From Craspedostauros australis (Eukaryota; Bacillariophyta; Bacillariophyceae; Mastogloiales; Achnanthaceae), in assembly GCA_026770025.1 (NCBI GenBank), contig JAMXDE010000016.1, positions 1 to 64,000 on the forward strand: a stretch of DNA of 64,000 nucleotides. Reading direction: 5' to 3'. The notes below the pieces were generated by a model. That model was not told the origin of the DNA. It saw only the letters and a list, made by a program, of their open reading frames with translations, and did not search any database. Each line of letters starts with the position of its first letter. Position 1 is the first letter of the stretch. Shown here piece by piece: positions 37,978 through 64,000 of this stretch. The translations under genes were made by a program, and so were the position numbers.

Positions 37978-39756
37978 TCAATTGTCATCTCCGTCAGGGG
38001 TAACCGAGCTGCTGCAGCACGGACAGTTGATCTGGGTGTCGTAGACTGAGATCTGTCGCTCCTCTCCACACATTGTGATCGTACCTTGGAGGTTAGCATT
38101 CTTGTGCAGCGACATCGTCGTCAATGCCGTGGATTTGCTCAAGAAGAGATCCAAGCCGCCGACCCAACCTTCGAGTTTGTTGTCATGCACGTGGACGCGC
38201 TCCAGTGTGGAATTGTCGACCGTAAGGGCATCCAGCGGCAATTCACCCGTGAGTTCGTTTCCGCTGAGCGAGAGGCGGCGCAACGGCAGCTGTCCAATTT
38301 CCGGCGGGATGGTGCCGCTCAAGCGGTTGCCTTCGGCGTACAATATCTCAATGCCTGGACTCGTCGCGGCGATCGTGGTGGGAATCGTACCTGACCATGA
38401 GTTGAAGGCAAGGTCAAGGTACACCATGTCCTCGAATTCGAAGAGGAATTCTGGCACGGGCCCCTCCTCGAACATGTTGAGAGACATGCAGAGCGTGTCA
38501 AGATCGGTCAACTGTGCGAGGTCGGTGGGCACTTTGCCCCGGAGGAAGTTGCCGGACACGGTGAGTTCAAAGAGCGTGGTGAGCAGCGACAGCTCCGATG
38601 GCAGGGATCCATGCAGCTCGTTGTCCTCCAACCGCAAGACGCGCAGCTGCTCCTGATGGTTGCAAGCGTCGATACGGTTGTCCAACGTCGTGACCCAGTC
38701 GCACTCGTGCTCGGTGTCGGAAATCCAGTTGTGATTCTGCGCCCAGTTGGGACCGTCGGTCTCGCAGAAGAAGGTGGCCATGGCGTATCGCTGGTAAATT
38801 CGTTCGTCCGTGAAGCTCGCGAACTCCTGGTTGGAGCGCAACCAATCTCGAGCAAGGATCTGACAAGGCTTCGTTGTCTCCATGCCCTTCTCCTCGAGCA
38901 GATCGATGATGGTCTGGCAGTTGGGATCTCTGTCGCACGGTGTTAGGTCGGCGCTGGATGGGAAGAATACGTCGAGACCGTCAGCGTCTTGGGCGGTGGG
39001 TCCCGTCTGGTCCACCCCGGCTCTGGACTGCTGAAGGGATGTCGACAGCCTGTCCTCCTGGTTGACTAGCTGCATCACCAGACCGACGAGGAAGACGACG
39101 AGCACCGCGCAACCCAAACACCCGATGATGGCGCAAGGAATGCCGACGGTGCGCCGCTTTGCACCATCATCGTCATCGTAGTCGTCGCCATCGTAGTCGT
39201 CGTCATCGTCGTCGGTGTCGTCATTATCACTTCGAGCCTTCCGAATGAATCTTTCTTTGTCGTCAAACATGGAGTGCGAAGCCATGCTCATGTCATCCTG
39301 AGCCTGCTGCAACTGGCTGTTGCTGGAGTCTTCATTGGAACCGCACGAGTGTTGGTCACTGTCGTCGCGATACCAACCGCTGTCGCTGTAACCACCCATG
39401 TTCCGAACTTTCAATGTGTTGTCGCTGTTGCTGATGTGGTTGCTGATGTTGGCGTTGGCGTTGGCGTTGGCGTTGGCGTTGGTGTTTGGTAGTACACTGT
39501 TATTATGAATGTTGACGCTGGTGGTGGCATTGTCGTTGTTGGTTTTATTGTGATTGGAATGTTGTGTGTTTTCCTGTGATGGGCCGCGATGGTTTGTACC
39601 TCTCGTGCATGTTTCGGCCAGCGTGCTCTTCTTGTCTTGCGCATCTGACAAAATGTGGTTTGTTTTGTTCGTTGTGGGTGTCTTTGTTCGTGCGGTGAAA
39701 CCAAAAAGGGACCGACTCAATGACCAGGCTTCTTCGCCGCACTTATGATAGGGCAT
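37978..39756 (-). CDS. Single-pass membrane protein with extracellular-type LRR domain
   Basis: A 592-residue protein in the diatom LRR style. Residues 60-155 are Asn/Ser/Gln-rich, including an (NA)n run at 91-102 encoded by a GTTGGC repeat. An acidic block (179-197) and KRR come before one membrane helix at about 205-231. The outer part has Cys274/280/298, a cap with CETDGPNW (331-338) and ECDW (351-354), then about eight LRRs (370-565) of the plant-type LxxLxxNxLxGxIP pattern, and a Cys-rich end (CPCC, 578-581). No signal peptide is visible; basic residues before the helix suggest N-inside topology. No kinase domain is present, so any signalling role is inferred. The start is uncertain: ATG at 39399 (residue 120, MGGYSDSGWYRDD) is an attractive alternative giving 473 residues. 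It is a paralogue of the C-terminal part of the giant protein at 50184-64000. Confidence 0.85.
   Translation of the reverse strand: MPYHKCGEEAWSLSRSLFGFTARTKTPTTNKTNHILSDAQDKKSTLAETCTRGTNHRGPSQENTQHSNHNKTNNDNATTSVNIHNNSVLPNTNANANANANANISNHISNSDNTLKVRNMGGYSDSGWYRDDSDQHSCGSNEDSSNSQLQQAQDDMSMASHSMFDDKERFIRKARSDNDDTDDDDDDYDGDDYDDDDGAKRRTVGIPCAIIGCLGCAVLVVFLVGLVMQLVNQEDRLSTSLQQSRAGVDQTGPTAQDADGLDVFFPSSADLTPCDRDPNCQTIIDLLEEKGMETTKPCQILARDWLRSNQEFASFTDERIYQRYAMATFFCETDGPNWAQNHNWISDTEHECDWVTTLDNRIDACNHQEQLRVLRLEDNELHGSLPSELSLLTTLFELTVSGNFLRGKVPTDLAQLTDLDTLCMSLNMFEEGPVPEFLFEFEDMVYLDLAFNSWSGTIPTTIAATSPGIEILYAEGNRLSGTIPPEIGQLPLRRLSLSGNELTGELPLDALTVDNSTLERVHVHDNKLEGWVGGLDLFLSKSTALTTMSLHKNANLQGTITMCGEERQISVYDTQINCPCCSSSVTPDGDDN
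39441..39485 (+). repeat. (GTTGGC)n hexanucleotide run
   Basis: Tandem GTTGGC units inside the 5' part of the LRR frame. On the minus strand they encode alternating Asn-Ala, residues about 91-102. If the true start is the ATG at 39399, this run lies in the 5' UTR. Confidence 0.8.
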
Positions 39757-50183: not shown

Positions 50184-53100
50184 TTATGGGGTTGGTGGGA
50201 CTGGCGGGGTTGGGTCCACGAAAGTGCAGCACTCGCACGCTGTACCTGTGTCTGCAGATACCTCGAACGGGACGTCCTTGAAGATCTTCGCTCCGTTGCA
50301 AACCTCGTCTGGGACCTCCGCCGGCGCATTTGGATCATCCAAGAATTTGTTACCATCCAGTGAAAGTTGTCGCAACTTCGTCAGATCTCCGAATTCGGTT
50401 GGGATTGGTCCTGTGAACTGATTCTTGTGGAAATACAGCTGTTCCAAATTGGCAGGCTTTCCAAGTTCTGTCGGAATGGTTCCGTCGAAGCGGTTGCCGT
50501 CGAAGTGCGCTCGGCGCAGCGGCAGGTTACCCAAGGTGGTTGGGAGGTTGCCGCTGAGTTGGTTGCCTTCCGTGTACAGGATGGCGACATTCGGACTGTC
50601 GGCCGCGAATGACTCGGGGATGTTGCCTTGGAAGTCGTTGTAGGCAAAGTCCAGGTACACCATGTCCGGGTACTTGAAGAAGAAGGGCGGGATCGGCCCT
50701 TCGAACTCGTTGTCTGAGATGACGAGGGTATCGAGTTCTTTCAGGTTAGCGAAATCATCCGGGAAGGTTCCCTGTAGCATGTTGTTGGAGAGAGTCAATT
50801 CGAACAGAGAGTCCATGATCGACAATTCGACTGGCAAAGTTCCCTCAAGCTCGTTACCGCTGAGTCGCAAGACTTCGTAGAGCTCCACGCGGTTGCATGG
50901 ATCGAGCTCCAAGTCACCCTGCCAGTCGCACTCGTGCATGTCAGATAGCCACTGGTTGTTGTCTCCCCACGCACCGCCGTCCGTCTCGCAAAAGATCATG
51001 GACATGGCGTAGCGTTGGCGAATACGTTCCGGCGTGAACACAAGAATGTCCACGTTGGTACGGAGGTAGTCACGCGACTTTGTCTGACAAGTGCCGCCAA
51101 AGTCCCACAGAGACTCGCCGTCAGGAGGCACGGTGATGTCAAGTGCATCGGCAATCGCCCTGCAGATGGGATCTTGGGTCGTGCACTGGCCAAGCGCATC
51201 AGTGGCTGGGAAGTAGTCGGCCGTTGCTGTGGTGGCATCAGCACCCGTGATGGCCTTGTCGGTTGCAATTCCACCACTCACCCCGGCTGTCGCGGCAGGG
51301 CCTCCGGTGGCTGCAATTCCTCCAGCGACCACGCCCAACGCAAGGAATGTCCAGGCTGCGCATGGCACGCCAGTGACAGGTGGTGGACGATCGTCTTCCT
51401 CCTCAGTGTATTCGCTGAGGTCGTCTTCTGGGACGTTGTTGAGGGAGCTGCTCGGTCCATCTGGTCCTTGGTCTTCCAGTGGGTCAGTGAAAACTGAACC
51501 ATCACGCGGGTTGAAGGACATGTCGTCGTCGGGGCGGCCTCCTTGCCAGTCGTAATCCGGTTCATCTTTCTTCCAGACGGCGTCGTCGGGACGCTGGCTT
51601 GACCAGCCGTATTCTGGTTCAGCCTCGGGCTCGTCTCCTTCACCTGGTCGCGGCGAGGCTGCGATCTTGTCCGGCCTGCCACCTGCCCAATCGTAGTCTG
51701 GTTGATCCTTCTTCCAGCTCGCGTCTTCTGGCCGATCAGCCGACCAGTCCATCTCAGGTTTCTCAACGGAATGACTGGCATCCTCTGGAGTTGCTCCCTC
51801 ACCTGGTCTTGGCGATGCTCCCATCTTGTTGGGCCTTCCACCGGCCCAATCAAACTCGGGAGCTTCCTGCTTCCAGGCCGAATCATCTGGCTTCTCTGCT
51901 GACCAGTCCATGTCTGGCTCCTCTTCGTGAGGTTTTCGTGTCCAGTTCAACAAGTCGTCATCTGCGGACTCGGGCGGGTTCTTCGATCGAGGAACTGAGT
52001 TGAGCTGTCCTGGCGGGACAAAAGGACCCAGAGGAGTGTCCTCATCGTCTGTTGCATTGGGCACTCTGTCCCATCCAAGCTCGGGGTAGTCCACGGTTCT
52101 TGGCTTGCCATCACGGGGAATGCTACGAACATCACCTGGTCGCTCAAATACTTCGTCGTCCATGGCAGTAGGAACTGCCTTGTCTCCGGGCGTTCGCTTC
52201 CAATCCAGTTCTGGATAGTCCTCGTCAGAAGGCGAACCGTCTCGTGGGATGCTTCTGACATCACCTGGGCGATCGAACACGTCTTCATCGTCGTCTGGTA
52301 CACCTGGGACGCTGTCGGTTGGTTGACGAGACCACGTGGTTTCTGGATGGTCATCGTTCTTGGGCTTTCCGTCACGCGGGATGCTACGAACATCACCTGG
52401 TCGCTCAAATACTTCCTCGTCTTCCGAAAGAGCTGGCGCCTTGCTGCCTGGTTGGCGGCTCCACGCGAGCTCTGGGTTGTCGTCTTCGGTTGGCTGACCA
52501 TCGCGCGGGATGCTGCGCAAGTCGCCTGGGCGATCGAACACATCATCGTCATCCGGTACGCCTGGAACGCTGTCGGTTGGCTGGCGAGACCACATGGTTT
52601 CTGGATGGTCATCGTTCTTGGGCTTGCCATCACGCGGGATGCTTCTCACGTCACCTGGTCGCTCAAACACCTCTTCATCTTCTGGAGTGGCAGGTGCTTT
52701 GCTGCCTGGTTGGCGGCTCCATGCGAGTTCTGGGTTGTCGTCTTCGGTTGGCTGACCATCGCGAGGGATGCTGCGCAAGTCGCCTGGACGATCGAACACA
52801 TCGTCGTCGTCCGGTACGCCTGGGACGCTGTCGGTGGGTTGACGAGACCACATGGTTTCTGGGTGGTCATCGTTCTTGGGCTTTCCGTCACGCGGGATGC
52901 TTCTCACGTCACCTGGACGATCGAACACCTCTTCATCTTCAGGAGTGGCAGGTGCTTTGCTGCCTGGTTGGCGGCTCCACGAGAGCTCAGGGTTGTCGTC
53001 TTCGGTTGGTTGACCATCGCGGGGGATGCTGCGCAAGTCGCCTGGACGATCGAACACATCGTCGTCGTCCGGTACGCCTGGGACGCTGTCGGTTGGTTGA

Positions 53101-56100
53101 CGAGACCACATGGTTTCTGGGTGGTCATCGTTCTTGGGCTTTCCATCACGCGGGATGCTACGAACATCACCTGGACGATCGAACACCTCTTCATCTTCAG
53201 GAGTGGCAGGTGCTTTGCTGCCTGGTTGGCGACTCCACGCGAGTTCTGGGTTGTCGTCTTCGGTTGGCTGACCATCGCGCGGGATGCTGCGCAAGTCGCC
53301 TGGACGATCGAACACATCGTCGTCGTCCGGTACGCCTGGGACGCTGTCGGTTGGTTGGCGAGACCACATGGTTTCTGGATGGTCATCGTTCTTGGGCTTT
53401 CCATCACGCGGGATGCTACGAACATCGCCTGGACGATCGAACACCTCTTCATCTTCAGGAGTGGCAGGTGCTTTGCTGCCTGGTTGGCGGCTCCACGCGA
53501 GCTCTGGGTTGTCGTCTTCGGTTGGCTGACCATCGCGGGGGATGCTGCGCAAGTCGCCTGGACGATCGAACACATCGTCGTCGTCCGGTACGCCTGGAAC
53601 GCTGTCGGTTGGTTGACGAGACCACATGGTTTCTGGGTGGTCATCGTTCTTGGGCTTTCCGTCACGCGGGATGCTTCTCACGTCACCTGGACGATCGAAC
53701 ACCTCTTCATCTTCAGGAGTGGCAGGTGCTTTGCTGCCTGGTTGGCGGCTCCACGCGAGTTCTGGGTTGTCGTCTTCGGTTGGCTGACCATCGCGGGGGA
53801 TGCTGCGCAAGTCGCCTGGACGATCGAACACATCGTCGTCGTCCGGTACGCCTGGAACGCTGTCGGTTGGTTGACGAGACCACATGGTTTCTGGATGGTC
53901 ATCGTTCTTGGGCTTTCCATCACGCGGGATGCTACGAACATCACCTGGACGATCAAACACCTCTTCATCTTCAGGAGTGGCAGGTGCTTTGCTGCCTGGT
54001 TGGCGGCTCCACGCGAGTTCTGGGTTGTCGTCTTCGGTTGGCTGACCATCGCGAGGGATGCTGCGCAAGTCGCCTGGACGATCGAACACATCATCTTCAT
54101 CTGGTACACCAGGGATGACATTTGTTGGTTGGCGCGTCCAGAGCATGTCCGGATTGTCATCGTTCTTGGGCTTGCCATCACGCGGGATGCTTCTCACGTC
54201 ACCTGGACGATCGAATACGTCTTCCATTTGCGGCTCATCGGTAGACTTTTGTGGGACATGACGAGCCCAAATTGATTCGGGTGAGTCTTCGGGCGCAGTT
54301 TTCCCCGACCTCGGGATAGAACGAAAGTCTCCTGGACGAGAGAACGGCGAGTCACCGTCTTCGGACGGTTCATCGTTCTCCGAACTTGGTCGTCTCGCCC
54401 AATCAAGAACAGAATCATCAAGATCATCCTGAGGACTGAAGCTCCGTGGGATAGAGTTCAATTTGTCTGGTTTGTCGAACGGAGTGTCGTGATCGGAAAC
54501 GCCAGGGATTGGCGACGACGATCGACGGGTCCAATCAAATGATGGAAACTGAGGCTCATCGTGCTTGCCTGATCGAGGCACAGAATTGACATCGCCTGGA
54601 GTCCAAAACGGAGAGTCCTGATCATCTGCCACGGCTGGCCTGTTCTCTGGAGAACGTTTCCAATCAAGGGTTGGTTCGTCCTCGCTTGGCACTCCATCAA
54701 GGCCTCTAGGAAGCACGTTGAGGTCCTCCGGTTGATCAAACGGAATATCTTCTTGCGGAACACCTGGAACGTTTCTTACAGGCTGCCGAGACCAATCGTA
54801 CATTGGATCGTCGAAGGCGGTCGGGCGACCGTCACGTGGAATGGAAGTCACGTCGCCTGGGCGGGCGAATGGAGAATCCTCGTCCTCCTCGACATCGTCT
54901 GGCTTCTTGCCACCTGGGTAGCGTCTCCAGTCGACTGGGCTGTCGTCGGCTCCATCCTGGCCTGGTTGGCGGTTGCGTGGGATGGAGTTGAGCTCGTCTG
55001 GCTTGTCGAATGGAACCTCCTCTTCTGGCACGCCTGGAATTGGCTTGCTTGGCTGGCGGCCCCACTCGAGCTCAGGTGCCTCCTCTTCGGTTGGCTTGCC
55101 GTCGCGTGGAATGGAAGTCACGTCGCCTGGGCGGGCGAATGGAGAATCCTCGTCCTCCTCGACATCGTCTGGCTTCTTGCCACCTGGGTAGCGTCTCCAG
55201 TCGACTGGGCTGTCGTCGGCTCCATCCTGGCCTGGTTGGCGGTTGCGTGGGATGGAGTTGAGCTCGTCTGGCTTGTCGAATGGAACCTCCTCTTCTGGCA
55301 CGCCTGGAATTGGCTTGCTTGGCTGGCGGCCCCACTCGAGCTCAGGTGCCTCCTCTTCGGTTGGCTTGCCGTCGCGTGGAATGGAAGTCACGTCGCCTGG
55401 GCGGGCGAATGGAGAATCCTCGTCCTCCTCGACATCGTCTGGCTTCTTGCCACCTGGGTAGCGTCTCCAGTCGACTGGGCTGTCGTCGGCTCCATCCTGG
55501 CCTGGTTGGCGGTTGCGTGGGATGGAGTTGAGCTCGTCTGGCTTGTCGAATGGAACCTCCTCTTCTGGCACGCCTGGAATTGGCTTGCTTGGCTGGCGGC
55601 CCCACTCGAGCTCAGGTGCCTCCTCTTCGGTTGGCTTGCCATCACGTGGAATGGAAGTCACGTCGCCTGGGCGGGCGAATGGAGAATCCTCGTCCTCCTC
55701 GACATCGTCTGGCTTCTTGCCACCTGGGTAGCGTCTCCAGTCGACTGGGCTGTCGTCGGCTCCATCCTGGCCTGGTTGGCGGTTGCGTGGGATGGAGTTG
55801 AGCTCGTCTGGCTTGTCGAATGGAACCTCCTCTTCTGGCACGCCTGGAATTGGCTTGCTTGGCTGGCGGCCCCACTCGAGCTCAGGTGCCTCCTCTTCGG
55901 TTGGCTTGCCGTCGCGTGGAATGGAAGTCACGTCGCCTGGGCGGGCGAATGGAGAATCCTCATCCTCCTCGACATCGTCTGGCTTCTTGCCACCTGGGTA
56001 GCGTCTCCAGTCGACTGGGCTGTCGTCGGCTCCATCCTGGCCTGGTTGGCGGTTGCGTGGGATGGAGTTGAGCTCGTCTGGCTTGTCGAATGGAACCTCC

Positions 56101-59100
56101 TCTTCTGGCACGCCTGGAATTGGCTTGCTTGGCTGGCGGCCCCACTCGAGCTCAGGTGCCTCCTCTTCGGTTGGCTTGCCGTCGCGTGGAATGGAAGTCA
56201 CGTCGCCTGGGCGGGCGAATGGAGAATCCTCGTCCTCCTCGACATCGTCTGGCTTCTTGCCACCTGGGTAGCGTCTCCAGTCGACTGGGCTGTCGTCGGC
56301 TCCATCCTGGCCTGGTTGGCGGTTGCGTGGGATGGAGTTGAGCTCGTCTGGCTTGTCGAATGGAACCTCCTCTTCTGGCACGCCTGGAATTGGCTTGCTT
56401 GGCTGGCGGCCCCACTCGAGCTCAGGTGCCTCCTCTTCGGTTGGCTTGCCATCACGTGGAATGGAAGTCACGTCGCCTGGGCGGGCGAATGGAGAATCCT
56501 CGTCCTCCTCGACATCGTCTGGCTTCTTGCCACCTGGGTAGCGTCTCCAGTCGACTGGGCTGTCGTCGGCTCCATCCTGGCCTGGTTGGCGGTTGCGTGG
56601 GATGGAGTTGAGCTCGTCTGGCTTGTCGAATGGAACCTCCTCTTCTGGCACGCCTGGAATTGGCTTGCTTGGCTGGCGGCCCCACTCGAGCTCAGGTGCC
56701 TCCTCTTCGGTTGGCTTGCCGTCGCGTGGAATGGAAGTCACGTCGCCTGGGCGGGCGAATGGAGAATCCTCGTCCTCCTCGACATCGTCTGGCTTCTTGC
56801 CACCTGGGTAGCGTCTCCAGTCGACTGGGCTGTCGTCGGCTCCATCCTGGCCTGGTTGGCGGTTGCGTGGGATGGAGTTGAGCTCGTCTGGCTTGTCGAA
56901 TGGAACCTCCTCTTCTGGCACGCCTGGAATTGGCTTGCTTGGCTGGCGGCCCCACTCGAGCTCAGGTGCCTCCTCTTCGGTTGGCTTGCCATCACGTGGA
57001 ATGGAAGTCACGTCGCCTGGGCGGGCGAATGGAGAATCCTCGTCCTCCTCGACATCGTCTGGCTTCTTGCCACCTGGGTAGCGTCTCCAGTCGACTGGGC
57101 TGTCGTCGGCTCCATCCTGGCCTGGTTGGCGGTTGCGTGGGATGGAGTTGAGCTCGTCTGGCTTGTCGAATGGAACCTCCTCTTCTGGCACGCCTGGAAT
57201 TGGCTTGCTTGGCTGGCGGCCCCACTCGAGCTCAGGTGCCTCCTCTTCGGTTGGCTTGCCGTCGCGTGGAATGGAAGTCACGTCGCCTGGGCGGGCGAAT
57301 GGAGAATCCTCGTCCTCCTCGACATCGTCTGGCTTCTTGCCACCTGGGTAGCGTCTCCAGTCGACTGGGCTGTCGTCGGCTCCATCCTGGCCTGGTTGGC
57401 GGTTGCGTGGGATGGAGTTGAGCTCGTCTGGCTTGTCGAATGGAACCTCCTCTTCTGGCACGCCTGGAATTGGCTTGCTTGGCTGGCGGCCCCACTCGAG
57501 CTCAGGTGCCTCCTCTTCGGTTGGCTTGCCATCACGTGGAATGGAAGTCACGTCGCCTGGGCGGGCGAATGGAGAATCCTCGTCCTCCTCGACATCGTCT
57601 GGCTTCTTGCCACCTGGGTAGCGTCTCCAGTCGACTGGGCTGTCGTCGGCTCCATCCTGGCCTGGTTGGCGGTTGCGTGGGATGGAGTTGAGCTCGTCTG
57701 GCTTGTCGAATGGAACCTCCTCTTCTGGCACGCCTGGAATTGGCTTGCTTGGCTGGCGGCCCCACTCGAGCTCAGGTGCCTCCTCTTCGGTTGGCTTGCC
57801 GTCGCGTGGAATGGAAGTCACGTCGCCTGGGCGGGCGAATGGAGAATCCTCGTCCTCCTCGACATCGTCTGGCTTCTTGCCACCTGGGTAGCGTCTCCAG
57901 TCGACTGGGCTGTCGTCGGCTCCATCCTGGCCTGGTTGGCGGTTGCGTGGGATGGAGTTGAGCTCGTCTGGCTTGTCGAATGGAACCTCCTCTTCTGGCA
58001 CGCCTGGAATTGGCTTGCTTGGCTGGCGGCCCCACTCGAGCTCAGGTGCCTCCTCTTCGGTTGGCTTGCCGTCGCGTGGAATGGAAGTCACGTCGCCTGG
58101 GCGGGCGAATGGAGAATCCTCGTCCTCCTCGACATCGTCTGGCTTCTTGCCACCTGGGTAGCGTCTCCAGTCGACTGGGCTGTCGTCGGCTCCATCCTGG
58201 CCTGGTTGGCGGTTGCGTGGGATGGAGTTGAGCTCGTCTGGCTTGTCGAATGGAACCTCCTCTTCTGGCACGCCTGGAATTGGCTTGCTTGGCTGGCGGC
58301 CCCACTCGAGCTCAGGTGCCTCCTCTTCGGTTGGCTTGCCGTCGCGTGGAATGGAAGTCACGTCGCCTGGGCGGGCGAATGGAGAATCCTCGTCCTCCTC
58401 GACATCGTCTGGCTTCTTGCCACCTGGGTAGCGTCTCCAGTCGACTGGGCTGTCGTCGGCTCCATCCTGGCCTGGTTGGCGGTTGCGTGGGATGGAGTTG
58501 AGCTCGTCTGGCTTGTCGAATGGAACCTCCTCTTCTGGCACGCCTGGAATTGGCTTGCTTGGCTGGCGGCCCCACTCGAGCTCAGGTGCCTCCTCTTCGG
58601 TTGGCTTGCCGTCGCGTGGAATGGAAGTCACGTCGCCTGGGCGGGCGAATGGAGAATCCTCGTCCTCCTCGACATCGTCTGGCTTCTTGCCACCTGGGTA
58701 GCGTCTCCAGTCGACTGGGCTGTCGTCGGCTCCATCCTGGCCTGGTTGGCGGTTGCGTGGGATGGAGTTGAGCTCGTCTGGCTTGTCGAATGGAACCTCC
58801 TCTTCTGGCACGCCTGGAATTGGCTTGCTTGGCTGGCGGCCCCACTCGAGCTCAGGTGCCTCCTCTTCGGTTGGCTTGCCGTCGCGTGGAATGGAAGTCA
58901 CGTCGCCTGGGCGGGCGAATGGAGAATCCTCGTCCTCCTCGACATCGTCTGGCTTCTTGCCACCTGGGTAGCGTCTCCAGTCGACTGGGCTGTCGTCGGC
59001 TCCATCCTGGCCTGGTTGGCGGTTGCGTGGGATGGAGTTGAGCTCGTCTGGCTTGTCGAATGGAACCTCCTCTTCTGGCACGCCTGGAATTGGCTTGCTT

Positions 59101-62100
59101 GGCTGGCGGCCCCACTCGAGCTCAGGTGCCTCCTCTTCGGTTGGCTTGCCGTCGCGTGGAATGGAAGTCACGTCGCCTGGGCGGGCGAATGGAGAATCCT
59201 CGTCCTCCTCGACATCGTCTGGCTTCTTGCCACCTGGGTAGCGTCTCCAGTCGACTGGGCTGTCGTCGGCTCCATCCTGGCCTGGTTGGCGGTTGCGTGG
59301 GATGGAGTTGAGCTCGTCTGGCTTGTCGAATGGAACCTCCTCTTCTGGCACGCCTGGAATTGGCTTGCTTGGCTGGCGGCCCCACTCGAGCTCAGGTGCC
59401 TCCTCTTCGGTTGGCTTGCCGTCGCGTGGAATGGAAGTCACGTCGCCTGGGCGGGCGAATGGAGAATCCTCGTCCTCCTCGACATCGTCTGGCTTCTTGC
59501 CACCTGGGTAGCGTCTCCAGTCGACTGGGCTGTCGTCGGCTCCATCCTGGCCTGGTTGGCGGTTGCGTGGGATGGAGTTGAGCTCGTCTGGCTTGTCGAA
59601 TGGAACCTCCTCTTCTGGCACGCCTGGAATTGGCTTGCTTGGCTGGCGGCCCCACTCGAGCTCAGGTGCCTCCTCTTCGGTTGGCTTGCCGTCGCGTGGA
59701 ATGGAAGTCACGTCGCCTGGGCGGGCGAATGGAGAATCCTCGTCCTCCTCGACATCGTCTGGCTTCTTGCCACCTGGGTAGCGTCTCCAGTCGACTGGGC
59801 TGTCGTCGGCTCCATCCTGGCCTGGTTGGCGGTTGCGTGGGATGGAGTTGAGCTCGTCTGGCTTGTCGAATGGAACCTCCTCTTCTGGCACGCCTGGAAT
59901 TGGCTTGCTTGGCTGGCGGCCCCACTCGAGCTCAGGTGCCTCCTCTTCGGTTGGCTTGCCGTCGCGTGGAATGGAAGTCACGTCGCCTGGGCGGGCGAAT
60001 GGAGAATCCTCGTCCTCCTCGACATCGTCTGGCTTCTTGCCACCTGGGTAGCGTCTCCAGTCGACTGGGCTGTCGTCGGCTCCATCCTGGCCTGGTTGGC
60101 GGTTGCGTGGGATGGAGTTGAGCTCGTCTGGCTTGTCGAATGGAACCTCCTCTTCTGGCACGCCTGGAATTGGCTTGCTTGGCTGGCGGCCCCACTCGAG
60201 CTCAGGTGCCTCCTCTTCGGTTGGCTTGCCATCACGTGGAATGGAAGTCACGTCGCCTGGGCGGGCGAATGGAGAATCCTCGTCCTCCTCGACATCGTCT
60301 GGCTTCTTGCCACCTGGGTAGCGTCTCCAGTCGACTGGGCTGTCGTCGGCTCCATCCTGGCCTGGTTGGCGGTTGCGTGGGATGGAGTTGAGCTCGTCTG
60401 GCTTGTCGAATGGAACCTCCTCTTCTGGCACGCCTGGAATTGGCTTGCTTGGCTGGCGGCCCCACTCGAGCTCAGGTGCCTCCTCTTCGGTTGGCTTGCC
60501 GTCGCGTGGAATGGAAGTCACGTCGCCTGGGCGGGCGAATGGAGAATCCTCATCCTCCTCGACATCGTCTGGCTTCTTGCCACCTGGGTAGCGTCTCCAG
60601 TCGACTGGGCTGTCGTCGGCTCCATCCTGGCCTGGTTGGCGGTTGCGTGGGATGGAGTTGAGCTCGTCTGGCTTGTCGAATGGAACCTCCTCTTCTGGCA
60701 CGCCTGGAATTGGCTTGCTTGGCTGGCGGCCCCACTCGAGCTCAGGTGCCTCCTCTTCGGTTGGCTTGCCGTCGCGTGGAATGGAAGTCACGTCGCCTGG
60801 GCGGGCGAATGGAGAATCCTCGTCCTCCTCGACATCGTCTGGCTTCTTGCCACCTGGGTAGCGTCTCCAGTCGACTGGGCTGTCGTCGGCTCCATCCTGG
60901 CCTGGTTGGCGGTTGCGTGGGATGGAGTTGAGCTCGTCTGGCTTGTCGAATGGAACCTCCTCTTCTGGCACGCCTGGGATTGGTTTTCCTGCACTGTTTC
61001 GGGTCCACACGTTTTCGTTGTCGCGTACCAGATTTGATTTCTTTGGTTTTCTGTTGACGTCGACCATATCGGTGTGCATCACTGGCAAGTCGTCTTGGCT
61101 GTCAAGGTTGTCAACACCTGGAATTGGTGCTTGCGGGACGTGTCGCTTCCACTCCATTTCAGGTGTGTCACTCTCAGTTGTTGGACTTTTGTCCTGTGGG
61201 ATGATGGAGACATCACCACGTCTGTTGAATGGATGTTCGGGCTCGTCGGGAACTTCTTCCGTTTGCAGTCCGCGTGGGTATCTCGACCAATCCAAACTGT
61301 CCAGGTTCGGTTTCTTATCTTGTGGAGCTTTCGGTTTTGGAATAGAATTGAACCCTTCGTTCTTGCGGAAGTGCTCGGCTTCGGGTGCATCGTCGTCTCT
61401 TGGGGTGAGCTTATTGCCTGTATTCCTCATCCAGTTCAGAGCATTCTCGATATCTTCGGCTCTGCCCTTTGGAGATTGCCCTGGAACCTTGGGAAGAAGA
61501 TTGTCAAGCTTTTCGAACTGATCCACGGGGGTGTCGTCGTCGATGTCCTTGACAGTGCTTGGTTTGCCATTGCGCAGCCAGTCCAAGATCTTTTCAGTCT
61601 CTTTTTCTCTCTGCTCCGGTGTCTTCTTTGGCATCGTTGCGGTCGTCTCGATTGGAAGAGGAAGGAAATCGCTCGTGTCGTCCACTGGAACATCGTTGTT
61701 TCTCAACCAGTTGAGAACGTTCTCAATATCTTTGGCCCTTTCCTCTGGTTGTTGCCCTGGCACATTCGGTAGGAGCTGGTCAACCTTTGCGAAGGGCTCA
61801 GCTTCTTCGGGAGACGCGTCCTTAGGATTTCGCATCCAACCGAGAATGGTGTCCACGTCTGATTTTCTTTCATCGGGAGTCTTCCTGTCAGCTGGTGAGT
61901 CAAGAAGTTTTGCCTTGTCGAATGGGACACTGTCTTCATCCATGTCCTCCAAGTCAATGTTGTTGTTTCGCATCCAGTCCAAACCATCCTGGATGTCATC
62001 AGCTCGCTGCGTTGGTGATTGTGGCAGGCGCTTCGGCAAAAGGCTGTCGATCTTCTCAAGGAGGTGATTGGTGTCGTCATCAACACTGTCTGGATTACGA

Positions 62101-64000
62101 ACCCAGTTCACGATGTCTTCGTGTTCTTGTGCCTTCGACGGTGGCTCAGCGCGTGTCGACAACGGCAACTGTGGTTGGCGCTTGAAGTCAGTGTTATCAG
62201 GGTCCTCGTCAACTTCCACACGGTTGTTCCTCATCCAATCAAGCGACCCCTCGATCTGTCTTGCGCGTTCGACGGGGTTCTCCTTGCTGCGCGAAGGCAA
62301 CATCTGGTCGATCTTCTTGAACTCGCCAGTGGGGTCCAACGAATCAGGCTTGCCGTTGCGAGCCCAGTTAAATGCTTTTTCTGCATCGGTTGCACGCTCT
62401 TCCGGAGAGCGGCGAGACACTGGGATGGATCCGAGCTTGTCGAATGGAACATCACTCTCATCCACATCCTCAGGACGTCGGTTGCGAGACCAGTCAAGGG
62501 CACTCTCGATGTCTCGAGCACGGTCCTCTGGGGTCTGACCTGGACGGGTTGGCATCAGCTGGTCGATCTTCTTGAACTCTCCAGTTGGATCCAACGAATC
62601 AGGCTTGCCATTGCGCATCCAGTTCAACACGTTGTTCACATCCTCAGAGCGTTCCTCTGGGGAGCGACGAGACACTGGAATGGATCCAATCTTGCTGAAT
62701 GGAACGTCGACATCGCCGTCATCGTCATCGGTTGGCTTCGTGTTGCGCATCCAGTCAAGGGCGCTTTCGATGTCACGAGCACGATCCTCTGGAGTCTGGC
62801 TCTTCTTCTGTGGAAGCATCTGATCGATCTTCTTGAATTCGCCGGTTGGGTCCAACGAATCAGGCTTGCCATTGCGAGCCCAGTTCAGGACGTTGTCGAT
62901 GTCCTTGGAGCGGCCCTCTGGTGAGCGCTTCGACACTGGAATCGATGCCAGCTTGTCGAAGGACGGGATCGAATCCTCATCAGGCTTCAATCCCTTGTTG
63001 CGCATCCAGTCAAGGGCGCTCTCGATGTCGCGAGCACGCTCTTCTGGAGTCTGGCTCTTTCGCTGAGGCATCATCTGGTCGATCTTCTTGAACTCACCAG
63101 TTGGGTCGTCTTCAGCATCCTTCCCGCTGCGCATCCAGTTGAGCACGTCGTCGATGTCCTGCTCTCTGTCTTCTGGGGAGCGACGAGACACTGGAATGGA
63201 TCCAAGCTTGTCGAATGGGGCAACAGAATCGTCGCTGTCGTCGGGCTTCAGCCCCTTGTTGCGCATCCAGTCGAGAGCACTCTCGATCTCCCGAGCACGA
63301 TCCTCTGGAGTCTGGCTCTTCTTCTGTGGGAGCATCTGGTCGATCTTCTTGAACTCGCCAGTTGGGTCGTCCTCATCGTTCTTGCCGTTGCGAGCCCAGT
63401 TCAGGACATCGTCGATGTCCTTGCTGCGTTCTTCTGGAGAGCGGCGAGACACTGGGATGGAGTTGAGCTGATCGAAGGAAGGCACATCATCAGTGACAGG
63501 GTTCACGTCGTGATTGCGCATCCAGTCAAGGGAGTTCTCGATGTCGCGCACACGTTCACGTGGAGTCTGACCTGGACGGGTTGGGATCATCTGGTCGATC
63601 TTCTTGAATTCACCGGTTGGATCCAACGAGTCAGGCTTGCCATTGCGCATCCAGTTCAACACGTCATCGATGTCCTTGCTGCGCTCCTCTGGGGAGCGAC
63701 GAGACACTGGAATAGATGCCAGCTTGTCGAATGGAACGTCGGCATCGCTGTCATCAGCATCGGTTGGCTTCGTGTTGCGCATCCAATCAAGGGCGCTTTC
63801 GATGTCTCGGGCACGATCCTCTGGAGTCTGGCTCTTCTTCTGTGGGAGCATCTGGTCGATCTTCTTGAACTCGCCAGTTGGGTCGTCCTCATCGTTCTTG
63901 CCATTGCGAGCCCAGTTCAGGACATCATCAATGTCCTTGCTGCGTTCTTCCGGAGAGCGGCGAGACACTGGGATGGATCCGAGCTTGTCGAATGGAACAT
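50184..64000 (-). CDS. Giant repetitive single-pass membrane protein with C-terminal LRR domain (5' partial)
   Basis: One uninterrupted frame of at least 4604 codons, open at base 64000, so the N-terminus is outside the window; the first in-frame GTG near 63968 lies inside a repeat and is not a start. From N to C: 86-residue units with DDVLNWARNGK and GEFKKIDQMLP (64000 to about 61400), a linker, 23 copies of a 90-residue unit (about 60978-54832), seven copies of an 86-residue unit (about 54235-52105) and three 50-residue units with DWSA.(K/R)P and DW.GGRP (51935-51507). Then come one hydrophobic segment (about 51375-51280), a Cys-containing cap with FCETDGGAW and ECDW (51020-50910), about nine LRRs (50890-50300) and a CECC end. 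The repeats are acidic, rich in Pro, Asp and Glu, and probably disordered. The outer part is paralogous to the LRR gene at 37978. Function is unknown; a surface or cell-wall-spanning protein is a guess. Confidence 0.85.
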   Translation of the reverse strand, partial: VPFDKLGSIPVSRRSPEERSKDIDDVLNWARNGKNDEDDPTGEFKKIDQMLPQKKSQTPEDRARDIESALDWMRNTKPTDADDSDADVPFDKLASIPVSRRSPEERSKDIDDVLNWMRNGKPDSLDPTGEFKKIDQMIPTRPGQTPRERVRDIENSLDWMRNHDVNPVTDDVPSFDQLNSIPVSRRSPEERSKDIDDVLNWARNGKNDEDDPTGEFKKIDQMLPQKKSQTPEDRAREIESALDWMRNKGLKPDDSDDSVAPFDKLGSIPVSRRSPEDREQDIDDVLNWMRSGKDAEDDPTGEFKKIDQMMPQRKSQTPEERARDIESALDWMRNKGLKPDEDSIPSFDKLASIPVSKRSPEGRSKDIDNVLNWARNGKPDSLDPTGEFKKIDQMLPQKKSQTPEDRARDIESALDWMRNTKPTDDDDGDVDVPFSKIGSIPVSRRSPEERSEDVNNVLNWMRNGKPDSLDPTGEFKKIDQLMPTRPGQTPEDRARDIESALDWSRNRRPEDVDESDVPFDKLGSIPVSRRSPEERATDAEKAFNWARNGKPDSLDPTGEFKKIDQMLPSRSKENPVERARQIEGSLDWMRNNRVEVDEDPDNTDFKRQPQLPLSTRAEPPSKAQEHEDIVNWVRNPDSVDDDTNHLLEKIDSLLPKRLPQSPTQRADDIQDGLDWMRNNNIDLEDMDEDSVPFDKAKLLDSPADRKTPDERKSDVDTILGWMRNPKDASPEEAEPFAKVDQLLPNVPGQQPEERAKDIENVLNWLRNNDVPVDDTSDFLPLPIETTATMPKKTPEQREKETEKILDWLRNGKPSTVKDIDDDTPVDQFEKLDNLLPKVPGQSPKGRAEDIENALNWMRNTGNKLTPRDDDAPEAEHFRKNEGFNSIPKPKAPQDKKPNLDSLDWSRYPRGLQTEEVPDEPEHPFNRRGDVSIIPQDKSPTTESDTPEMEWKRHVPQAPIPGVDNLDSQDDLPVMHTDMVDVNRKPKKSNLVRDNENVWTRNSAGKPIPGVPEEEVPFDKPDELNSIPRNRQPGQDGADDSPVDWRRYPGGKKPDDVEEDEDSPFARPGDVTSIPRDGKPTEEEAPELEWGRQPSKPIPGVPEEEVPFDKPDELNSIPRNRQPGQDGADDSPVDWRRYPGGKKPDDVEEDEDSPFARPGDVTSIPRDGKPTEEEAPELEWGRQPSKPIPGVPEEEVPFDKPDELNSIPRNRQPGQDGADDSPVDWRRYPGGKKPDDVEEDEDSPFARPGDVTSIPRDGKPTEEEAPELEWGRQPSKPIPGVPEEEVPFDKPDELNSIPRNRQPGQDGADDSPVDWRRYPGGKKPDDVEEDEDSPFARPGDVTSIPRDGKPTEEEAPELEWGRQPSKPIPGVPEEEVPFDKPDELNSIPRNRQPGQDGADDSPVDWRRYPGGKKPDDVEEDEDSPFARPGDVTSIPRDGKPTEEEAPELEWGRQPSKPIPGVPEEEVPFDKPDELNSIPRNRQPGQDGADDSPVDWRRYPGGKKPDDVEEDEDSPFARPGDVTSIPRDGKPTEEEAPELEWGRQPSKPIPGVPEEEVPFDKPDELNSIPRNRQPGQDGADDSPVDWRRYPGGKKPDDVEEDEDSPFARPGDVTSIPRDGKPTEEEAPELEWGRQPSKPIPGVPEEEVPFDKPDELNSIPRNRQPGQDGADDSPVDWRRYPGGKKPDDVEEDEDSPFARPGDVTSIPRDGKPTEEEAPELEWGRQPSKPIPGVPEEEVPFDKPDELNSIPRNRQPGQDGADDSPVDWRRYPGGKKPDDVEEDEDSPFARPGDVTSIPRDGKPTEEEAPELEWGRQPSKPIPGVPEEEVPFDKPDELNSIPRNRQPGQDGADDSPVDWRRYPGGKKPDDVEEDEDSPFARPGDVTSIPRDGKPTEEEAPELEWGRQPSKPIPGVPEEEVPFDKPDELNSIPRNRQPGQDGADDSPVDWRRYPGGKKPDDVEEDEDSPFARPGDVTSIPRDGKPTEEEAPELEWGRQPSKPIPGVPEEEVPFDKPDELNSIPRNRQPGQDGADDSPVDWRRYPGGKKPDDVEEDEDSPFARPGDVTSIPRDGKPTEEEAPELEWGRQPSKPIPGVPEEEVPFDKPDELNSIPRNRQPGQDGADDSPVDWRRYPGGKKPDDVEEDEDSPFARPGDVTSIPRDGKPTEEEAPELEWGRQPSKPIPGVPEEEVPFDKPDELNSIPRNRQPGQDGADDSPVDWRRYPGGKKPDDVEEDEDSPFARPGDVTSIPRDGKPTEEEAPELEWGRQPSKPIPGVPEEEVPFDKPDELNSIPRNRQPGQDGADDSPVDWRRYPGGKKPDDVEEDEDSPFARPGDVTSIPRDGKPTEEEAPELEWGRQPSKPIPGVPEEEVPFDKPDELNSIPRNRQPGQDGADDSPVDWRRYPGGKKPDDVEEDEDSPFARPGDVTSIPRDGKPTEEEAPELEWGRQPSKPIPGVPEEEVPFDKPDELNSIPRNRQPGQDGADDSPVDWRRYPGGKKPDDVEEDEDSPFARPGDVTSIPRDGKPTEEEAPELEWGRQPSKPIPGVPEEEVPFDKPDELNSIPRNRQPGQDGADDSPVDWRRYPGGKKPDDVEEDEDSPFARPGDVTSIPRDGKPTEEEAPELEWGRQPSKPIPGVPEEEVPFDKPDELNSIPRNRQPGQDGADDSPVDWRRYPGGKKPDDVEEDEDSPFARPGDVTSIPRDGKPTEEEAPELEWGRQPSKPIPGVPEEEVPFDKPDELNSIPRNRQPGQDGADDSPVDWRRYPGGKKPDDVEEDEDSPFARPGDVTSIPRDGKPTEEEAPELEWGRQPSKPIPGVPEEEVPFDKPDELNSIPRNRQPGQDGADDSPVDWRRYPGGKKPDDVEEDEDSPFARPGDVTSIPRDGKPTEEEAPELEWGRQPSKPIPGVPEEEVPFDKPDELNSIPRNRQPGQDGADDSPVDWRRYPGGKKPDDVEEDEDSPFARPGDVTSIPRDGKPTEEEAPELEWGRQPSKPIPGVPEEEVPFDKPDELNSIPRNRQPGQDGADDSPVDWRRYPGGKKPDDVEEDEDSPFARPGDVTSIPRDGRPTAFDDPMYDWSRQPVRNVPGVPQEDIPFDQPEDLNVLPRGLDGVPSEDEPTLDWKRSPENRPAVADDQDSPFWTPGDVNSVPRSGKHDEPQFPSFDWTRRSSSPIPGVSDHDTPFDKPDKLNSIPRSFSPQDDLDDSVLDWARRPSSENDEPSEDGDSPFSRPGDFRSIPRSGKTAPEDSPESIWARHVPQKSTDEPQMEDVFDRPGDVRSIPRDGKPKNDDNPDMLWTRQPTNVIPGVPDEDDVFDRPGDLRSIPRDGQPTEDDNPELAWSRQPGSKAPATPEDEEVFDRPGDVRSIPRDGKPKNDDHPETMWSRQPTDSVPGVPDDDDVFDRPGDLRSIPRDGQPTEDDNPELAWSRQPGSKAPATPEDEEVFDRPGDVRSIPRDGKPKNDDHPETMWSRQPTDSVPGVPDDDDVFDRPGDLRSIPRDGQPTEDDNPELAWSRQPGSKAPATPEDEEVFDRPGDVRSIPRDGKPKNDDHPETMWSRQPTDSVPGVPDDDDVFDRPGDLRSIPRDGQPTEDDNPELAWSRQPGSKAPATPEDEEVFDRPGDVRSIPRDGKPKNDDHPETMWSRQPTDSVPGVPDDDDVFDRPGDLRSIPRDGQPTEDDNPELSWSRQPGSKAPATPEDEEVFDRPGDVRSIPRDGKPKNDDHPETMWSRQPTDSVPGVPDDDDVFDRPGDLRSIPRDGQPTEDDNPELAWSRQPGSKAPATPEDEEVFERPGDVRSIPRDGKPKNDDHPETMWSRQPTDSVPGVPDDDDVFDRPGDLRSIPRDGQPTEDDNPELAWSRQPGSKAPALSEDEEVFERPGDVRSIPRDGKPKNDDHPETTWSRQPTDSVPGVPDDDEDVFDRPGDVRSIPRDGSPSDEDYPELDWKRTPGDKAVPTAMDDEVFERPGDVRSIPRDGKPRTVDYPELGWDRVPNATDDEDTPLGPFVPPGQLNSVPRSKNPPESADDDLLNWTRKPHEEEPDMDWSAEKPDDSAWKQEAPEFDWAGGRPNKMGASPRPGEGATPEDASHSVEKPEMDWSADRPEDASWKKDQPDYDWAGGRPDKIAASPRPGEGDEPEAEPEYGWSSQRPDDAVWKKDEPDYDWQGGRPDDDMSFNPRDGSVFTDPLEDQGPDGPSSSLNNVPEDDLSEYTEEEDDRPPPVTGVPCAAWTFLALGVVAGGIAATGGPAATAGVSGGIATDKAITGADATTATADYFPATDALGQCTTQDPICRAIADALDITVPPDGESLWDFGGTCQTKSRDYLRTNVDILVFTPERIRQRYAMSMIFCETDGGAWGDNNQWLSDMHECDWQGDLELDPCNRVELYEVLRLSGNELEGTLPVELSIMDSLFELTLSNNMLQGTFPDDFANLKELDTLVISDNEFEGPIPPFFFKYPDMVYLDFAYNDFQGNIPESFAADSPNVAILYTEGNQLSGNLPTTLGNLPLRRAHFDGNRFDGTIPTELGKPANLEQLYFHKNQFTGPIPTEFGDLTKLRQLSLDGNKFLDDPNAPAEVPDEVCNGAKIFKDVPFEVSADTGTACECCTFVDPTPPVPPTP
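50300..50960 (-). other. LRR and cap domain of the giant protein
   Basis: Reads ECDWQGDLELDPCNRVE, then successive LxxLxLxxNxLxGxIP repeats (for example LRLSGNELEGTLP, LTLSNNMLQGTFP, LVISDNEFEGPIP, LYFHKNQFTGPIP), and closes toward a Cys-rich tail at 50220-50240. This is the plant-type extracellular LRR class. Order and spacing match the smaller LRR protein repeat by repeat, including LDxAxNxxxGxIP and ILYxEGNxLSGxxP. Confidence 0.88.
51507..51935 (-). repeat. Three coding repeats of about 50 residues (WS..RP / DW.GGRP)
   Basis: Three imperfect copies next to the membrane segment, each with an E-x-D/G-W-S segment, a P-D/E-D-x-x-W-K segment and D-W-x-G-G-R-P. They are more diverged from each other than the central units, so they appear older or less homogenised. 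Confidence 0.8.
52105..54235 (-). repeat. 258-bp coding repeat array, seven regular copies plus diverged ends
   Basis: The word GGGATGCTGCGCAAGTCGCC recurs at steps of 258 bp from about 52508 to 54056, seven copies. Each unit encodes 86 residues made of two similar halves: ELAWSRQPGSKAP..EEVFDRPGDVRSIPRDGK and ETMWSRQPTDSVPGV..DVFDRPGDLRSIPRDGQ. Copies differ by scattered substitutions, so this array is less uniform than the 270-bp one. Confidence 0.9.
54832..60978 (-). repeat. 270-bp coding repeat array, about 23 near-identical copies
   Basis: GAATGGAGAATCCTC recurs every 270 bp from about 54868 to 60808 with no length change. The 90-residue unit contains ELEWGRQPSKPIPGVPEEE, FDKPDELNSIPRN, DWRRYPGGKKPDDVEEDE and FARPGDVTSIPRD. 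The protein is identical in all copies. The DNA variants I noticed are synonymous: GTCGCG or ATCACG in the IPRDG codons, and CGTCCT or CATCCT in the acidic run. Confidence 0.95.
61400..64000 (-). repeat. About 258-bp coding repeats with variable spacing (N-terminal array)
   Basis: Units step at about 253-262 bp between 62408 and the window edge, using the GGCGAGACACTGGGATGGA-type word as marker. They become strongly diverged from 62300 down to 61400. Each encodes two halves: VLNWARNGK...PTGEFKKIDQMLP and ALDWMRN...VPFDKLASIPVSRRSPEER. The array continues beyond the window. Confidence 0.88.

Follow-up and report, generated by a model that had tools for sequence, protein, structure and literature searches.

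A minus-strand open frame that runs off the end of the DNA analysed here raises three questions: what kind of protein joins several thousand residues of tandem repeats to a leucine-rich repeat (LRR) domain through a single membrane segment, on which side of the membrane the repeats lie, and what so long a chain might do. The DNA in question, referred to below as the window, is a stretch of 64,000 nucleotides corresponding to positions 1–64,000 of contig C14, which is 1.72 Mb long in an assembly of 74.8 Mb in 90 contigs. A sequence-only reading of the window had described an intronless giant of at least 4,604 codons with an acidic, Pro-rich repeat stalk, and had left two topologies side by side, a very long extracellular or wall-embedded fibre and a huge disordered cytoplasmic tail.

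Extent and integrity of the giant gene

The stop-free frame of at least 4,604 codons was confirmed on the minus strand at 50,184–63,998, both by the ORF listing and by translation, and it reaches the end of the window. The sequence-only reading had also proposed extending the contig past position 64,000 in search of the true start, and translation of C14:60,001–90,000 found it: the frame continues beyond the window until it meets an in-frame stop upstream of the start, at 84,861–84,863, and its first ATG, which has a plausible context (ATCATGGCT), lies at 84,818. The giant gene is one uninterrupted single-exon frame encoding 11,544 residues without a stop (1.30 MDa, pI 4.5), and because the frame extends to this ATG the window holds only the C-terminal 40% of the protein. 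Over the same 34.6 kb, the five remaining frames contain 43, 137, 244, 202, and 543 stops; therefore the open frame is not a product of chance. Additionally, the ORF has main repeat periods that are multiples of three (270, 258, 264, and 516 bp, the last two corresponding to 88 and 172 residues). The parts of the giant in the window are as follows.

50184..63998, minus strand: window part of the giant ORF, residues 6,941–11,544 plus stop, the rest lying on C14 up to the ATG at 84,818 (translation)
61029..63995, minus strand: last stretch of the helical-module region, residues 6,942–7,930, a helical core of about 64 residues plus linker (profile, predicted structure)
62217..62408, minus strand: single module, first row of the array A2 alignment, AlphaFold2 pLDDT 88.2 and pTM 0.71 (alignment, AlphaFold2)
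54829..60983, minus strand: array B, a Pro/acid-rich unit of 270 bp (90 residues) repeated 22.8 times with 99% matches (repeat finding)
51969..54848, minus strand: array C, a relative of B whose Pro/acid-rich units measure about 86 residues (258 bp) (repeat finding, profile)
51369..51968, minus strand: juxtamembrane acidic Trp-rich stretch, residues 10,951–11,150 (composition)
51312..51368, minus strand: single membrane segment, residues 11,151–11,169 (hydropathy)
50187..51305, minus strand: C-terminal domain with linker, cap, LRRs (about 50,334–50,873 by Pfam positions) and CxCC tail, probably extracellular or lumenal (Pfam, comparison with the paralogue)

The plan of a repeat stalk, one membrane segment and an LRR domain, as first read from the window, was thus borne out by hydropathy and by Pfam LRR matches. 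Its estimate of about 4,000 acidic, Pro-rich repeat residues is right for the window part, in which 4,210 residues precede the membrane segment; of the 6,940 residues that precede those in the window, most are less Pro-rich and carry a helical module.

Near-identical arrays with an internal offset of 5.7 kb at 93.5% identity are where assemblies fail, and a repeat gene could have been fused artificially to an LRR gene or the arrays inflated. We consider such an artefact extremely unlikely, since a single frame spans the unique N-terminus, the diverged modules, the arrays and the unique C-terminus, the contig is a long one in an assembly of few contigs, and the 90 kb of sequence read contain no undetermined base (0 N). 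The copy number of the arrays may still differ from the assembled value.

Other features lie around the gene. A kinesin motor gene is placed head to head with the giant (C14 from about 87608 onwards, L003:7608-9998; PF00225 E 9e-74 on L003:8187-9998), its start lying about 2.8 kb from the giant gene as inferred from the ORF list. Plus-strand open frames of up to 2,101 codons are found opposite the arrays (window 52319-54275 and 54732-61037); they probably arise as a side effect of the repeat units, and no evidence of a gene was seen in them. The start of C14 is occupied by a satellite-like tandem array of 24 kb (window 1096-24969; 74-bp unit, 322 copies, 90% matches), and the long minus-strand ORFs inside it look spurious. 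Elsewhere in the genome the silicon transporter family PF03842 gave 88 matched stretches, 32 of them nearly full length (covering at least positions 11–484 of 513; for example C11:710408-712021 and C9:2024068-2025684) and four of these 32 with in-frame stops. This abundance supports a diatom origin of the DNA, short of proof, as silicon transporters also occur in some silica-forming protists other than diatoms. The flagellar marker PF10211, considered for telling pennate from centric diatoms, gave no match and was set aside because it had no positive control.

Membrane segment, LRR head and the family in this genome

The membrane segment has a mean hydropathy of 1.82 and is the sole stretch of the giant above the usual threshold (next best, 0.93). 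The C side that follows it comprises 375 residues with plant-type LRRs (Pfam LRR_1 2.8e-21, LRR_8 4.1e-14), and the best matches of this head among PDB sequences are ectodomains of plant LRR receptors, with GSO1 at the top (E 1.6e-100). Across 11,539 of the 11,544 residues, only LRRs passed in Pfam as stretches of their own, except for DUF3717 in the N-terminal part, which was rejected because its one short passing stretch scores below the family cut-off; neither a kinase or other known signalling domain nor an IQ motif was found in these 11,539 residues. NCBIfam matches to four pieces of the giant were all far below cut-off, those of the head being bacterial LRR proteins and reflecting the LRRs, and Rfam gave nothing in the 64-kb window.

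At least 64 stretches of the genome match the head region at E ≤ 1e-10, the giant included; these are stretches rather than genes, and the number is a lower bound because scoring covered 77 of 443 candidates. Next to the giant, the longest open frame in the 64 matches listed has 2,323 codons. A cluster of several long TM-LRR frames in both orientations (up to 2,323 codons among those listed) was observed at C4:2269988-2298919, and one of these frames has extra hydrophobic peaks upstream. The closest paralogue lies in the window itself, about 10 kb from the giant:

37978..39756, minus strand: closest head paralogue among the matches listed, TM-LRR plan, short N tail, no modules (sequence comparison)

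Its N tail has 209 residues and it shares 41–43% identity with the giant head. Nine of the ten cysteines after the membrane segment of the giant are common to this paralogue (9 of 13 Cys columns), and so is the CxCC tail.

The TM-LRR family of this genome is defined by a membrane segment, a cap and LRRs in one frame, an arrangement found in the giant, and the relatives show the same plan, cap and CxCC tail. Among 19 relatives fetched, 15 have a membrane segment (hydropathy ≥ 1.8) in the fetched part and four do not. The segment of the giant is the weakest measured, at 1.82 against 2.17–3.33 in the 15 passing relatives. Because 12 of the 19 fetched frames touch the edge of their locus, tail lengths are restricted to the five relatives that are complete and have a membrane segment; counted from the first Met, these tails have 38, 209, 384, 390, and 396 residues, and two incomplete relatives on contig C4 have tails of at least 617 and at least 718 residues. 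Since tail length varies so widely, a short N tail is taken as variable and not as defining the family. Neither is the family strictly single-pass, because at least one relative (L006, extended as L047) shows further hydrophobic peaks upstream in a frame that is cut at the edge. The giant, which the sequence-only reading had singled out as intronless, is indeed encoded by a single exon, but this is not unusual, as 15 relatives also have the membrane segment and the LRRs in one open frame. Both the head and the lack of introns are ordinary for this genome; the N side is what is new, with 11,150 residues of modules and repeats in place of a short low-complexity tail.

To our knowledge, diatom membrane LRR proteins are mostly without an assigned function on the inner side. 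A computational survey of the LRR proteins of Phaeodactylum is said to have been made by Schulze and colleagues. Proteins that combine a membrane segment and LRRs with no recognisable kinase, as the giant does, are described in other diatoms (MRP2 and MRM2 of Pseudo-nitzschia multistriata, and the expansions in Seminavis robusta) (PMC6261938; PMC7335047), and membrane LRR proteins are reported to be expanded in some other diatoms (PMC7335047). The giant differs from them by its module tail of 11,150 residues, against the 38–396 residues of the complete relatives in its own genome. The giant belongs with the diatom membrane LRR proteins, and what is new in it is the kind of tail.

Plant LRR receptor kinases (GSO1, PEPR1, FLS2, TDR) share the LRR type of the giant head and provide its best PDB matches. 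They are type I proteins with a signal peptide and a kinase on the inner side. The giant is unlike them in being, as argued below, probably N-inside, and a classification as an LRR receptor kinase was rejected since no kinase domain was found by Pfam in the residues covered. A receptor of another kind can be envisaged, in which the head senses a ligand (a pheromone, or a signal from bacteria or neighbours) while beads on the inside dock signalling proteins, the length serving multivalency and not mechanics. This would agree with the resemblance of the head to plant receptor ectodomains, with the sharing of the module with a protein predicted to bind calmodulin (see below), and with the proposal that two mating-type-biased TM-LRR genes of the pennate diatom P. 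multistriata, which lack a recognisable kinase, encode pheromone receptors or adhesion molecules (PMC6261938). However, the giant shows no signalling domain in the span covered by Pfam and 10,000 residues are not obviously needed for signalling; we regard a receptor scaffold as possible but rather unlikely.

Helical module and Pro/acid-rich arrays of the N side

The N side begins with a Pro-rich leader without a hydrophobic stretch (residues 1–350, 13% Pro), continues with the module region (residues 350–7,930, about two thirds of the N side) and ends, before the juxtamembrane stretch, with the Pro/acid-rich arrays (residues 7,930–10,950, its last quarter). Proline makes up 3–9% from residue 350 through the module region compared with 16–18% in arrays B and C. 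A profile built for the module finds 85 copies at 10 bits or more, or 72 by a stricter pattern, and about 7,600 residues of the giant carry it. The early copies are diverged and the later ones sit in nested arrays, such as A2 (units of 88 residues) and A4 (units of 85–87 residues, with super-periods of 172, 516, 688, 1,204, and 1,892 residues). Compared with itself, the DNA of A4 has identities of 0.80–0.94 at the eight best in-frame offsets against 0.31 at the best off-frame one. A regular tryptophan spacing runs through the chain: 214 of 223 Trp-to-Trp distances between residues 1,140 and 10,950 are 42–46 residues, and 232 of the 278 tryptophans of the giant stand in a W-x-R context.

A single module is predicted by AlphaFold2 as a compact helical bead; two of five models reach pLDDT 88, the best being the one listed above, and the other three 67–72. 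In the model of a three-module stretch, three helical beads are recovered (mean pLDDT 62) with linkers below pLDDT 50, and the pTM of 0.34 indicates beads without a fixed mutual packing. The huge disordered tail of the sequence-only reading holds in so far as the linkers are predicted to be flexible, but most of the chain carries the module, and the modelled copies are helical beads.

The bead found no match in Pfam or in PDB sequences, and no clear one among PDB folds. The best match of the module profile to PDB sequences was a Sel1 repeat protein at E 0.003 with no passing stretch, and the N-terminal 1,206 residues reached only E 0.38. One module searched against bacterial and archaeal genome contigs and one stretch of the IQ-motif gene described below searched against viral contigs gave no relative, collections that say nothing on diatoms. 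Several Pfam families suggested on the arrays were rejected: UBA_DHX29 and UBA_7 reached their cut-off only when many partial matches were added up, no single stretch passing by itself, and the same holds for PknG_TPR, PPR_2, Tal_Pri, DUF4884, FCSD-flav_bind, ParD_like, NIL, and others. An origin of the module helix (ALDWLRN) from the LRR cap helix (ALDWLANQD in the relatives) was also rejected, the scores falling inside the shuffle range, and in a comparison of the module model with the frames of the 19 relatives the best of the 15 scored reached 2.8 bits (shuffle maximum, 6.4). Set against the Pfam and PDB libraries searched, the module is apparently an undescribed folded helical unit.

A profile search of the genome found the module in one other gene:

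C2:2067745-2075601 (L034, L035): IQ-motif gene with four module copies (profile, Pfam)

Its open frame has 2,645 codons, and its four copies score 40–45 bits with a model made from the modules of the giant only, whereas the best of 500 shuffles scores 6.4. The IQ motifs (E 1.9e-17, four stretches) stand in front of the beads, and no membrane segment was found by hydropathy (best stretch, 0.99). This protein also contains ten acidic motifs of the IEWVVD type between residues 976 and 1,697.

Arrays B and C are clearly related to each other in profile comparison (E 9e-19). A comparison of A4 with B was in register but weak (E 0.0013, probability 18%), by which a descent of the B and C units from the helical module is no more than hinted at. 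The protein sequence of the repeat units is conserved in A2, A4 and C. Between units, pN/pS is 0.22 in A2 (pN < pS in 65 of 66 pairs), 0.35 in C (36 of 36 pairs) and 0.38 in A4 when it is cut into 23 four-Trp units (249 of 253 pairs), or 0.36 as 46 two-Trp units; the arrays were divided into units at W-x-R/K without the leftover pieces at their ends, and the pairs compared in one array are not independent of each other. In A1, A3 and A5 all 45 pairs have pN < pS as well (pN/pS 0.52–0.68), at a divergence (pS 0.73–0.77) too high for a reliable ratio. The 21 units compared in array B have one amino-acid sequence in three DNA versions, their three variable sites all being silent; with so few sites this is weak on its own and points in the same direction as A2, A4 and C.

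These values bear on the idea that the tail has grown by replication slippage and that its length has no selected function. Such growth would be in line with the nested recent duplications (B at 99% identity with three variable sites in 21 units, A4 with offsets of 172, 516, 688, and 1,892 residues) and with the five complete relatives that manage on tails of 38–396 residues. Nevertheless, the units of A2, A4 and C keep their amino acids while synonymous sites change, and the absence of stops from all 11,544 codons includes the first 350 residues and the early modules, which are diverged, so that a purely passive expansion appears quite improbable.

Topology and possible role of the giant

The giant is very probably N-inside, with the LRR head outside or in a lumen. 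This orientation is favoured because the true N-terminus lacks a hydrophobic stretch resembling a signal peptide (hydropathy from the first Met), the N side carries the basic flank in the relatives, cysteines and LRRs lie on the C side, and the module is found in an IQ protein. In 13 of 15 relatives the 20 residues before the membrane segment are richer in K/R than the 20 after it, with two ties and no reversal; the flanks of the giant itself tie, with one K/R on each side. The N side contains only six cysteines in its 11,150 residues. Moreover, the second protein with the module is predicted to bind calmodulin and hence to be cytoplasmic, which argues for a cytoplasmic chain in the giant.

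An inside tail, one of the two alternatives of the sequence-only reading, is therefore the one favoured. In the other, the N side would be a fibre outside the cell or embedded in the wall, and the LRRs would lie inside. Acidic, Pro-rich repeats do resemble wall proteins by composition, and diatom adhesive trails are reported to hold proteins of about 1 MDa (CaTrailin4, about 900 kDa; Ca5609, more than 1 MDa) (PMC11420354). In size and diatom origin these two are like the giant; they were found in adhesive trails (PMC11420354), whereas the giant has a membrane anchor and an N-terminus without a signal-peptide-like stretch. The relatives also point N-in, a plant-type LRR domain with cysteines would have to lie inside, and the module is common to an IQ protein. 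The N side has 13 sequons where about 48 would be expected from composition (proline not excluded and repeats not independent), in addition to its scarcity of Cys. We judge an extracellular fibre very unlikely.

The N-inside orientation would equally fit an internal membrane, such as that of the silica deposition vesicle or another endomembrane, with a lumenal head and a chain that recruits a shaping cytoskeleton. A scan of the C side for N-glycosylation sequons found none, which would suit such a location, as would the abundance of silicon transporter genes in this genome. On the other hand, no targeting evidence was seen in the sequence and the LRR head is like those of cell-surface receptors, which makes this location improbable.

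Our tentative preference, short of an even chance, is for the giant as an N-inside membrane tether that links LRRs on the outside to many sites on the inside, probably cytoskeletal ones. The giant would be a type II single-pass membrane protein and, judging from family and composition, its head would face out of the cell or into the lumen of an internal compartment, and its chain of 11,150 residues would lie in the cytoplasm. With less certainty, the chain of beads may form a long, flexible and multivalent tether, making one contact outside and many inside through about 80 similar beads on flexible linkers. Every bead would present the same surface, formed by the conserved Leu-Asp-Trp-x-Arg helix and a Phe-x-Lys helix, to a partner that is itself repeated, with a cytoskeletal filament or a motor-associated protein as the likeliest candidate, and the roughly 3,000 acidic, Pro-rich residues beside the membrane may act as an entropic spacer. 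Fully extended, the N side would have a contour length of about 4.0 micrometres (11,150 × 0.36 nm); therefore one molecule could span far across the cell or couple a surface contact to dozens of inside sites. Since the bead sits behind four IQ motifs in the second protein, its partner may be shared and regulated by calcium.

A cytoskeletal partner is a candidate that we infer from size, repetition, the IQ protein and giants of the FAZ10 type. Nebulin, titin and spectrin connect membranes or filaments through extended strings of small modules or through Pro-rich springs. In the PDB, the module of the giant gave no sequence match and no clear fold match. FAZ10 of Trypanosoma brucei, described as a giant protein of the flagellum attachment zone with a 13,005-bp ORF and 52 near-identical repeats of 35 residues (PMC5358337), may be an analogue in its working as a giant repetitive cytoskeletal protein. 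It is reported with coiled coils, with no detected transmembrane helix and with repeats of another length and type (PMC5358337), while the giant is itself anchored. Among the papers listed by a literature search, mainly open-access ones, none was seen to report a giant LRR protein or this module from diatoms, and the main text of a survey of proteins of more than 5,000 residues does not contain the words diatom, stramenopile or Bacillariophyta (PMC11573180). The size of the giant alone is notable and not unprecedented, because proteins of about 1 MDa are reported from diatom adhesive trails (PMC11420354).

During gliding, force must cross the plasma membrane through a continuum of molecules, the identity of which is described as open (PMC11420354; PMC11962607). 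The giant could be a structural transmembrane link of a kind so far absent from diatom biology, in which a module chain of cell length binds the cortical cytoskeleton or motors inside, the LRR head binds wall or adhesive material outside, and the IQ protein acts as a calcium-regulated partner; this more specific proposal is a long shot. If it is true and the host is raphid, the component of the gliding machinery that spans the membrane, and is still missing, would have a candidate in such a link. The gene offers a directly testable candidate for the transfer of gliding force across the plasma membrane. The module, found here in just two genes of which one is predicted to encode a calmodulin-binding protein, is a small domain that could be expressed as bait. 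More generally, an inside chain of 1.26 MDa suggests that some membrane LRR proteins may be mechanical or multivalent links and not sensors only.
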